Part shown: in pieces, positions 21,776-24,798 of the stretch
Layout: each line of letters begins with the position of its first letter
How positions within the stretch are numbered: the stretch's first letter is position 1
DNA from: a virus
Direction: 5' to 3' (one strand)
Virus record (IMG/VR): IMGVR_UViG_3300030060_000740
Coordinates: 1 to 25,174 of that record
DNA length: 25,174 nucleotides
Position numbers and translations under genes: made by a program
The notes under the pieces: model-generated
Seen by the model: only the letters and a program-made list of their open reading frames with translations
Told to the model about the DNA's origin: nothing
Database searches by the model: none

Positions 21776-22450
21776 CTATTTTTTATCTATGTAAACTCTT
21801 AGATGTGTTGATTGCTCTATACTTTGACCATAATGGGTAGCACCTGTACCTTTTAACTCAGGCTTGATGTGTTGCCCTCGCACTCTCATGGTATAGGAAT
21901 CATGGTTAAGATATACTTTCATACCTCTAGTTAGCTTTTTGCCATACTCATTGTTAGGTATCTCAGCGAATACATATCTAGCTCCTCCAAATTGCATGGC
22001 ATCATGGTATGCTTTTTTATAATGCTCATTCTCTTCAGATAGCTTTTTTATTATGTCATCTTTCTCTTCAATGATAGAGTCAAGTTTATCTATCTTGCCA
22101 TGCAGATTGTGATATTCTTGTGTATCATTATTAGTTAGTTGTGTTTTATAAACCTCTATGTCCTCTTTAAGGCTTTCTACTACATTAGCAAGATGTACAC
22201 CCTCATTAACTGCATCATCTTTTTCTTTTCTTAACTCCTCAAGAGTATAATCTCTTGGCTTTGTTTCCTTTTGGCTAGATAGCTTTACAAAAGCTCTGAC
22301 CATATGTTGAAAGTCCATATGTGAGATAGGTATATATCTATCCTCTTCTTTTGAATAGTATGCCTTGTAATTCAAGTCATACATATCACTTGCAAGTTTA
22401 CCTGTGGTTGTTGTTGCACCTAGCATTGTTACTACTCTGTGTATTTTCAT
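21776..22450 (-). CDS. Coiled-coil phage protein (224 aa)
   Basis: AAAGGAG lies 8 bases before the ATG, which overlaps the hydrolase stop as ATGA. Residues 1-60 form a mixed domain (KIHRVVTMLGATTTTGKLAS...). Residues about 70-150 are a charged coiled coil (ELRKEKDDAV..., IDKLDSIIEEKDDIIKKL). The C-terminus is a likely beta domain (GMKVYLNHDSYTMRVRGQHI, THLRVYIDKK). No catalytic motif is found. The coiled coil suggests an oligomeric or scaffold role. I do not recognise the family. Confidence 0.7.
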   Translation of the reverse strand: MKIHRVVTMLGATTTTGKLASDMYDLNYKAYYSKEEDRYIPISHMDFQHMVRAFVKLSSQKETKPRDYTLEELRKEKDDAVNEGVHLANVVESLKEDIEVYKTQLTNNDTQEYHNLHGKIDKLDSIIEEKDDIIKKLSEENEHYKKAYHDAMQFGGARYVFAEIPNNEYGKKLTRGMKVYLNHDSYTMRVRGQHIKPELKGTGATHYGQSIEQSTHLRVYIDKK

Positions 22451-22884
22451 TTTGTTCTCCTTTCATTTTCCCACTTATAAAATATGTGGTCATCTATTCT
22501 AGTTATATAAGTCTTTGTTTCTGCCCAACTTGGGTTAACGTAGTAGGCATGATAATGTGTTGCACCTTCGACAAAATCATCTAGGTTGCCATAGTATACA
22601 CCTTTAGCAACTTTGAGTGCAACATCCCATGCTTTCTTTTCTCTTGCCTTATCACTCTTACCATCACAATACCAACTGAATTGACACTTGTTCTTGATAG
22701 GTAGTGTAGGTTTCCATTTGTATGTTAATCCCTGTTTAACGACATCACATACGTTGTTTGGATATCTTGAATCCTGTACCCTATTCATAACTACTTGTGC
22801 AACTGCCACTTGACCTATGAAACTTTGGTTTTTAGATTCGTGATATACATTTAAAGCTAAACACATGATTGATTCAAGTATCAT
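22447..22884 (-). CDS. SleB-type cell-wall hydrolase, candidate endolysin
   Basis: The start at 22884 (145 residues) overlaps the methyltransferase stop as ATGA and has AAAGGTGG upstream; a GTG at 22893 is also in frame. The whole protein is one Hydrolase_2 domain: LNVYHESKNQ with the likely catalytic Glu14-16 region, GQVAVAQVVMNRV, QFSWYCDG, then EGATHYHAYYVNPSWA and DDHIFYKW. The family cuts peptidoglycan and includes spore-cortex and phage lysins. There is no signal peptide, so export would need a holin. It is the only lysin candidate in the window, yet sits in the leftward early cluster, far from the holin-like gene at 1260-1496. Confidence 0.88.
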   Translation of the reverse strand: MILESIMCLALNVYHESKNQSFIGQVAVAQVVMNRVQDSRYPNNVCDVVKQGLTYKWKPTLPIKNKCQFSWYCDGKSDKAREKKAWDVALKVAKGVYYGNLDDFVEGATHYHAYYVNPSWAETKTYITRIDDHIFYKWENERRTK

Positions 22885-24044
22885 TTTGTCCACCTTTCAT
22901 CCCATATAGGATTGTCTAATGTATATTCTTTTGGTTGTTCTTGTATTGTTTCATGCAATGCTTTTTGGAATCCACTATATCCATCAAAGCACGACAACAC
23001 AACCATACCATCATGCAATGGTAGGTTTTTAATTATATGTTTAATGGTAGGAATATTAAAACCATTGCCTAGCATCTTGTATCGCTGACTATTTGATACA
23101 TGATTAGTGTAGTCATCAGATAATCCTTGTAGTCTTTCACACTCTAATGGTGTTAGCTTTCTCCATGTCATATCCTTAACTAAGATATTATCTTTTTGTA
23201 CAGTAGTTAAACAATTAGTTTTATCATCATCCCTTACTTCTATTTGTGTAGTGAAAGGTAAATCTAATTGATAGTCTTTTCTAACACCATCTTTGTTTAA
23301 TCTCCTGTTGACAATACGACCACCTTTAGTTGAATAAGTAGCTACTTTAGGTTGCCTGTTGCCACCTTGCATTGTCAATAGAGTTGGTGCTTTACCATCC
23401 TTATGATAAACTCTTTTGGCTTGTTCATGTTTGTAATGTGCATATTCTTCAGCATGACCAACTTCAATACAACCTACCATAGTACGTTGTTTTCTTTGGA
23501 TACTATTCCACCATACTGCACCATTGTAGGTAGCAGTTAGACAATGTGATTTACCCTCTTTGCTAGTCATTTCATCACAGGCTATGCCATCTTCTTGTAG
23601 TATGTCTTGTAAGACTATGCCTTTATCTTTAATGTCCATATCAACAGGAATGTTTGTCCAATATAATCTTTTCCTGTTTTGTGCAGTAAAGTTACTAGAG
23701 TTAATCATAATAGGTTTTACTCCTAGATACTTTGATATAACGTCTTGATACTCTTGTTTCATCACTACGTTTTCAAGTAAAAAGTATTTAGGTTTTAGTG
23801 TGTCTTTTAGTCTGACAAACTCAAAGAATAATTTACTACGTTCATCATTAAAGTTTAGTTGTTTTCCTGCAAAGCTAAATCCTTGACATGGACTACCACC
23901 TACTAGAATATCTAGTTCTTGATTCCATTCCAATGGTGGTTTGATTTGTGTTACATCCCCTAATTGTATTGTGTTAGGGAAGTTAGCTTGAGTTACTTTG
24001 ATAGCATACTTATCTATCTCACTCGCATAGTATTTGTATTTCAT
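22881..24044 (-). CDS. DNA cytosine-C5 methyltransferase, apparently circularly permuted
   Basis: This is a 387-residue protein. The N-terminus starts directly with motif II (YYASEID, residues 5-11), then motif IV GGSPCQGFS with catalytic C53, motif VI LLENV (89-93), motif VIII QNRKRLYW (122-129), a target-recognition region (about 140-290), and motifs IX-X (RKLTPLECERLQGL, LGNGFNIPT). Motif I, the SAM-binding FxGxG strand that is normally first, is absent there. A matching sequence, VVLSCFDGYSGFQKAL (348-362), follows motif X at the C-terminus. AGGAG lies 8 bases before the ATG, and a sigma70-like promoter lies 31 bases upstream. No partner restriction enzyme is seen, so this is an orphan enzyme, probably protecting phage DNA. 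Confidence 0.92.
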   Translation of the reverse strand: MKYKYYASEIDKYAIKVTQANFPNTIQLGDVTQIKPPLEWNQELDILVGGSPCQGFSFAGKQLNFNDERSKLFFEFVRLKDTLKPKYFLLENVVMKQEYQDVISKYLGVKPIMINSSNFTAQNRKRLYWTNIPVDMDIKDKGIVLQDILQEDGIACDEMTSKEGKSHCLTATYNGAVWWNSIQRKQRTMVGCIEVGHAEEYAHYKHEQAKRVYHKDGKAPTLLTMQGGNRQPKVATYSTKGGRIVNRRLNKDGVRKDYQLDLPFTTQIEVRDDDKTNCLTTVQKDNILVKDMTWRKLTPLECERLQGLSDDYTNHVSNSQRYKMLGNGFNIPTIKHIIKNLPLHDGMVVLSCFDGYSGFQKALHETIQEQPKEYTLDNPIWDERWTK

Positions 24045-24074
24045 TTGTGTTGCTCCTGTAGGTGTTGTGTCTAT

Positions 24075-24103
24075 GTTATATAACTTAACTTAGGTAGTGT
24101 CAA
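24075..24103 (-). promoter_or_regulatory. Sigma70-like promoter for the methyltransferase operon
   Basis: On the minus strand TTGACA (24103-24098) and TATAAC (24080-24075) are separated by exactly 17 bases. The -35 box is perfect and the -10 differs from consensus in one base. Transcription would start near 24068, about 25 bases before the methyltransferase ATG, and could run through the whole leftward cluster. Confidence 0.75.
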
Positions 24104-24285: not shown

Positions 24286-24798
24286 TTATTCTCCATAATA
24301 TTTTTCTACTTTGTTGTATAACTCTTTTAGGCTATCTTGATTAGCTTGATATAGTATTCCTATACCACCTTTGTCTATCCATTTTTCTATATTCTTTGGC
24401 TTATCATCTATTAGGATGTTGCCTAGAGTATATAAACTATTCCTTGCATACTTTTCTTTTCGACCTGTAAAGATTGCATCACTTGGTTTATAGTTATGTT
24501 TAGATAGCCAATGCCTTTTCCAAAAGGATGAATTGTCATTGTCGTATCTTAATGGGGATGAAAGTATAATCCATTCTCCATTTGTAAGTTTATTTATATA
24601 ACTAATCAGTTTGTCGCTAGTCTTAAACTTAGGTATAGTTCCAAAAAAATCAGTTCCTTTTAAATCTTTTATGGTTTTATCTATATCTAATTCTTTCCAA
24701 TGCTTTACGTTGTATTTGTTTTCTAATGCTTTGAAAAAATCAGCTATCACTCCATCCATATCTATGTAAACTTTTCTTTTGATGTGTTGGTTAAGCAT
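24286..24798 (-). CDS. HAD-family 5'(3')-deoxyribonucleotidase-like phosphatase
   Basis: This is a 170-residue HAD protein. Motif I is YIDMDGVIADF (D13, D15), motif II is IILSSPL with S80/S81, a Lys follows in the GRKEKYA region, and motif III is ILIDDKPKN (D131, D132). The match is to the NT5C-type 5'(3')-deoxyribonucleotidases, which dephosphorylate dNMPs and are common in phages, where they help balance nucleotide pools. AAAGGA lies 7 bases before the ATG. The upstream spacer (24799-24865) carries a -35 box and an inverted repeat. Confidence 0.9.
   Translation of the reverse strand: MLNQHIKRKVYIDMDGVIADFFKALENKYNVKHWKELDIDKTIKDLKGTDFFGTIPKFKTSDKLISYINKLTNGEWIILSSPLRYDNDNSSFWKRHWLSKHNYKPSDAIFTGRKEKYARNSLYTLGNILIDDKPKNIEKWIDKGGIGILYQANQDSLKELYNKVEKYYGE

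Follow-up and report, generated by a model that had tools for sequence, protein, structure and literature searches.

A phage C5-cytosine DNA methyltransferase gene with the features of a natural circular permutant cut between motifs I and II

Among 20,677 sequences of REBASE, the natural permuted C5-methyltransferases were reported to share a single topology, cut in the variable region (PMC5944983, 2018). This natural type, named type H, includes M.BssHII, M.Alw26I, M2.Eco31IC, M.Esp3I and M2.BsaI, and the type cut between motifs II and III (II/III) was said not to seem to occur naturally (PMC5944983). Permutants of M.MpeI and M.SssI engineered with a cut in the SAM-binding half were active, and a possible cost in SAM affinity was suggested for such a cut; the engineered type A presumably corresponds to a cut between motifs I and II (I/II). 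The same study noted that the termini of canonical C5 enzymes lie close together, that fragments 1-61 and 62-395 of M.MpeI complement each other and that split C5 enzymes work in trans (PMC5944983). No paper on natural I/II, II/III or III/IV permutants was found in the open-access literature. The I/II cut is not described there as natural, and it is part of a wider overlooked set of permutants.

The window, that is the whole stretch of DNA analysed here, comprises 25,174 nucleotides of a virus, a marine phage (IMG/VR record IMGVR_UViG_3300030060_000740). A C5-cytosine DNA methyltransferase gene lies at 22881..24044 on its minus strand, as an open reading frame of 387 codons (387 aa) with the ATG at 24044-24042 and the stop at 22883-22881; over this interval, numerous stops interrupt the plus strand. 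The coordinates of the original prediction stand, and the minus strand has to be added to them. The product matches TIGR00675 (dcm; E 4.7e-46, 157.9 bits for a cut-off of 100.65) and PF00145, where residues 5-341 cover profile columns 25-322 of 324 (E=2.7e-44, cut-off passed). Since the Pfam match begins at column 25, at motif II, the N-terminus has no counterpart of the first 24 columns, which represent motif I. An own-genome search detected no other PF00145 gene in the whole record.

The motifs, all on the minus strand, follow one another in the order II-III-IV-VI-VIII-TRD-IX-X-I. The new N-terminus is the motif II strand, residues 3-12 (YKYYASEIDK, 24009..24038), placed by alignment and by a DSSP strand at 3-8, with the core YYASEID at residues 5-11. 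Motif III (QLGDV, residues 27-31, 23952..23966) was placed by alignment. Motif IV occupies residues 49-60 (GGSPCQGFSFAG, 23865..23900) and contains the core GGSPCQG with the catalytic Cys53, P52 and C53 being invariant in 88 sequences. Motif VI (YFLLENV, residues 87-93, 23766..23786) carries Glu91, invariant in the alignment together with N92, and motif VIII (AQNRKRLY, residues 121-128, 23661..23684) carries the invariant Q122, R124, R126 and Y128. The signatures of the family, namely the Pro-Cys nucleophile, the ENV of motif VI and the QxRxR of motif VIII, are therefore present and invariant or nearly so among the 88 aligned sequences. They are followed by the variable or target-recognition region (TRD; approximately residues 150-292, 23169..23597), of low model confidence and variable in the alignment, and by the alignment-based motifs IX (residues 294-313, 23106..23165) and X (residues 320-341, QRYKMLGNGFNIPTIKHIIKNL, with GNGFNIP, 23022..23087). 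Within a single chain, motif X comes ahead of motif I, and the N-terminus is devoid of motif I, as in a circular permutant. The start at motif II and the succession of IV, VI, VIII, IX and X had both been foreseen, and motif III can now be inserted between them.

This arrangement resembles type H in being circularly permuted with X ahead of I. The type H enzymes, however, have their N-terminus between motif VIII and the TRD, in the variable region, whereas the window enzyme starts at motif II. The engineered M.MpeI and M.SssI permutants, especially the class B cp62M.MpeI, come closer by their cut in the SAM-binding half and their junction of X to I, but they are laboratory-made and cp62 is cut between II and III (PMC5944983). 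The canonical phage orphan enzymes of the same families (PF00145, TIGR00675), such as Roseobacter phage CRP-603 gp10, CRP-9 gp12 and locus L034, share all motifs and about 45-71% identity over II-X, and differ by an N-terminal motif I.

The SAM-binding motif I, of the FxGxG-like kind, is found at the C-terminus, where it reads VVLSCFDGYSGFQKAL. The matching segment, residues 347-363 (MVVLSCFDGYSGFQKAL, 22956..23006), begins after a linker of about five residues behind motif X; residues 346-365 had been proposed. A motif I HMM made from 86 canonical N-terminal motif I segments of related phage enzymes was run against the six frames of the window. It matched the C-terminus of the methyltransferase frame with E=4.6e-6, and everything else at 1.3 or worse. 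The same HMM is weak in the clade of L005 (E 0.0087 at Z=1000). The C-terminal SxFDGYSG is conserved between clades, while the linker and the tail diverge. In addition, a phmmer search of PDB sequences aligned residues 296-364, from IX through I, with the permuted plant DRM2/NtDRM (E 4e-13), in which motif X also runs directly into motif I. The plant DRM enzymes are cut further along, so that motifs I to IV come after X, whereas motif I alone does so in the window protein.

A single-chain AlphaFold2 model, computed from the 88-row alignment, reached a mean pLDDT of 74.5 and a pTM of 0.71, with low pLDDT in the target-recognition region and over the final 15 residues. The average for residues 341-370 is 87-90, and DSSP assigns a strand to residues 3-8 (motif II), a second one to 347-352 and a helix to 358-369 (motif I). 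In an in silico deletion control limited to residues 1-341, strand 3-8 was reduced to a bridge at 6-7 and the pLDDT of residues 1-10 dropped from 87 to 81. Because strand 3-8 collapses once the C-terminus is removed, the C-terminal strand is predicted to pair with that of motif II, in the manner of beta1 and beta2 in the normal fold; in this predicted model, the relocated motif takes its usual place in the fold again. A fold search superposed the II-X core on DNMT3A, DNMT3B, M.HhaI and M.MpeI with Z scores of 22-23.5 (23.4 for DNMT3A and M.HhaI), in alignment rows that cover residues 1-346 and hence stop ahead of the relocated motif I. The chain would then begin with beta2, continue with catalysis (IV, VI, VIII), target recognition and IX-X, and end, past the short linker, with the strand-loop-helix of motif I slotting beside beta2 and completing the SAM pocket. 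The original prediction had expected a C-terminal segment packing beside the N-terminus, and the strand-helix modelled at a pLDDT near 90, along with the effect of its removal, agrees with this view.

The permuted order is not confined to the window. A scan of viral contigs detected three contigs at 96-98% identity and seven at 76-84%, all of them in the order II to X, then I. A third clade (L032, L033 and L057; 57-65% identity), in which motif I is likewise C-terminal, came from a profile scan. At least 10 other viral contigs, falling into three sequence clades, share the window order and none of them has an N-terminal motif I, so that these homologues do not refute the original prediction. 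More distant relatives (38-71% identity) have an N-terminal motif I and the normal order, which is what would be expected of an unpermuted ancestor. In a census of a larger locus set, the counts were 219 for I-II-IV-X, 8 (distinct) for II-IV-X-I and 28 for IV-X-I-II. Two local changes were observed within these clades. In comparison with its near-twin L033:2998-4143, L057:2998-4011 is devoid of 44 residues of the target-recognition region, a module loss that could be a possible change of specificity. L011 and L005 are near-identical except for a replaced stretch extending from motif VI as far as the beginning of the TRD (residues ~94-145), which suggests recombination within the gene.

The motif order, the relatives and the predicted strand pairing all uphold the proposed circular permutation with a cut between motifs I and II. 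The best explanation as a whole, with a probability of about 0.88, is that the gene encodes a phage orphan C5-cytosine DNA methyltransferase naturally permuted at an I/II cut, and four other explanations have to be weighed against it. The least credible is a wrong start, a frameshift or an assembly artefact that would hide a canonical motif I upstream and leave a chance match at the C-terminus. Motif I is short, so chance matches can arise; yet a chance match was rejected in view of the E-value of 4.6e-6 and of its being the sole match in six frames. The upstream region was equally informative. An in-frame stop lies 16 codons 5' of the ATG, and a -35 hexamer TTGACA (24098..24103) and a -10 hexamer TATAAC (24075..24080), separated by 17 nt and together carrying 11 of 12 consensus bases, are read directly on the minus strand. 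The TTGACA is present in L002-L004, with a similar element in L005-L011. A Shine-Dalgarno sequence AGGAG (24053..24057, minus strand), 8 nt 5' of the ATG, is conserved in L002-L011. The promoter tool did not list the hexamer pair, as it demands a T at the last -10 position. The stop, the hexamer pair and the AGGAG indicate that no 5' end has been lost, in line with the promoter originally suggested. In the permuted relatives L002-L011 and L032/L033/L057, no upstream motif I was detected within up to 1.2 kb in three frames (best E 0.25-1.4). A wrong start and an assembly artefact were rejected on these grounds and by the same order in independent contigs. It is also very improbable, if slightly less so, that the C-terminal motif I is a separate peptide, translated from an internal ATG before VVLS and complementing the main chain. 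The window clade does retain a Met at the start of motif I and the M.MpeI fragments 1-61 and 62-395 do complement (PMC5944983), but the L005 and L033 clades are without this Met.

The two remaining explanations concern the state of the enzyme and are both improbable, albeit less so than the preceding ones. A domain-swapped dimer, in which two chains would exchange motif I and use it in trans, is compatible with a fold prediction that covers a single chain and with the known trans-complementation of split C5 enzymes (PMC5944983). It is made unlikely by the short linker from X to I, comparable to the X-I stretch aligned to DRM2, and it is not needed if the termini are as close as in canonical enzymes (PMC5944983). 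An inactive or decaying relic, kept for another reason after the permutation broke SAM binding, is the least improbable of the four, although still doubtful; it finds an argument in the SAM-affinity cost put forward as a suggestion for cuts in this half (PMC5944983). Against it, the catalytic residues are invariant, and the frame is open in at least 10 contigs, those of the permuted relatives containing no second PF00145 gene. Comparison of the window gene with L107 gave a pN of 0.093 and a pS of 0.51 over II-X, which as a sequence comparison is evidence of purifying selection. The pN of motif I was 0.12, for a small count of approximately 4.5 nonsynonymous differences, as compared with 0.44 for the linker and 0.66 for the tail. 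Even with such small counts, the contrast with the flanks suggests that the relocated motif I is constrained, and this motif is conserved between clades.

As judged from its sequence, the window protein is more than a simple end-to-end permutation, motif I being inserted between motif X and a C-terminal tail typical of canonical relatives. This tail (KEYTLDNPIWDERWTK, 22884..22931, minus strand) is the tail of the canonical L049, L037 and L058 (KEYLLTDPIWDERWTR in L049), and that of L033/L057 (EWVEMYNNNKENV) is the tail of the canonical L039 and of the L118-type enzymes. Because motif I is placed before a tail shared with canonical relatives, an origin by tandem duplication, fusion and internal deletion is suggested, as a reconstruction of which no surviving intermediate was seen. 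Two tandem methyltransferase copies would have been fused from motif X of the first to the start of the second. The first copy would have lost motif I, and the second motifs II-X, retaining the tail, in which the ribosome site for the downstream gene is located; the start Met of the second copy would be left before VVLS. Indeed, the Met before VVLS in the window clade matches the start Met of the canonical MNVLSLFDG. The tail DNA contains a Shine-Dalgarno-like AAGGTGG (as in the window) or AAGGAG, and the start of the next gene overlaps the stop or lies directly against it. These features may account for the retention of the tail. An arrangement that could yield a permutant by fusion exists in Croceibacter phage P2559Y (L194:1334-3470), where two tandem methyltransferase genes are adjacent, 1 nt apart. 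A neighbour in Pseudoalteromonas phage H40/1, considered as a motif I-III fragment after tblastn, turned out on translation to be a canonical enzyme beside an unrelated neighbour, and the GenBank matches H73 and H90 over X-I are canonical.

The number of permutation events was approached with trees. The I/II type formed one clade in a quick tree; a careful tree placed it in two positions with weak support, a single clade being recovered in 34% of bootstraps, and a joint clade of the I/II and III/IV types was not rejected (p 0.79). The sequence FDGY is common to the I/II permutants and occurs in none of the 86 canonical motif I segments. This shared sequence favours one origin for the I/II type, while the trees are compatible with one or more events.

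Further natural permutants were found with cuts located one or two motifs later than in the window enzyme. The III/IV type is represented by 28 distinct complete ORFs among the loci collected. Phage nd4 WRQ08028.1 (L027:781-2457) and many viral contigs have motif IV (MIKLLIGGSPCT) at the start and stop just past motif III (GDAFDLRHPDWTIGY); L183, L184 and L189 form a second group, and L358-L391, including L380, are further loci of this type. The II/III type comprises L270 (L270:1960-3342, a Synergistales contig) and the viral contigs L403, L405, L418 and L419, in which motif III (MKHLGDITK) opens the chain and motif II (ASEIEEFPIAVTK) closes it, as well as L420. The II/III junction is present in human faecal phage records, too, and in the Faecalibacterium phages Toutatis and Lelie (L476:970-2381 and L477:1149-2381), where the frame is apparently broken by a frameshift and the annotation shows two genes or one shortened gene. 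Like the window gene, the III/IV (nd4, L183, L184, L380) and II/III (L270, L403, L405) loci are phage or phage-like C5 enzymes in which X is joined to I. At the level of sequence, the statement that the II/III type does not seem to occur naturally is contradicted. A scan of a genome collection with conserved IX/X words gave, in its best 80 rows, only canonical or partial enzymes except L270; as it relied on these words and these rows, it does not prove absence from bacteria.

The surroundings of the gene are those of a phage. The next gene (22447..22893, minus strand, PF07486) encodes a cell-wall hydrolase or endolysin, and its true start is likely the ATG at 22884, overlapping the methyltransferase stop (ATGA); a downstream PF07486 gene with an overlap occurs also in several canonical relatives. 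Upstream of the methyltransferase lies a deoxyribonucleotidase-like gene (24286-24798, minus strand; PF06941, phrog_2643). The window also encodes a DnaB helicase, an integrase, a ribonucleotide reductase and a polymerase of the polA type that shares 62-65% identity with its counterparts in HMO-2011, CRP-1 and CRP-345. Near the integrase, the layout of the window is like that of HMO-2011-type phages. Two of the latter, CRP-603 and CRP-9, have a canonical-order family member in the equivalent early region; the phage collection searched contained no near-identical isolate. By analogy with its canonical relatives, we infer that the window enzyme binds SAM and is active, that its most likely substrate is cytosine in the DNA of the phage itself, and that its biological role is presumably protection against host restriction.

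Taken with the other permutants, it appears somewhat probable that phages repeatedly make I/II, II/III and III/IV permutants by fusion of tandem copies, and that these work as normal enzymes. Such genes may be missed, the nd4 and Lelie copies being annotated as 'hypothetical protein' and profile models matching part of the chain. If this repeated occurrence of functional permutants is true, the published picture of the variable-region cut as the sole natural one, perhaps owing to a cost in SAM affinity at other positions, would be wrong. The I/II permutant, together with the II/III and III/IV ones, runs counter to the single natural topology reported in 2018, and provides natural enzymes on which the idea of a SAM cost can be measured.
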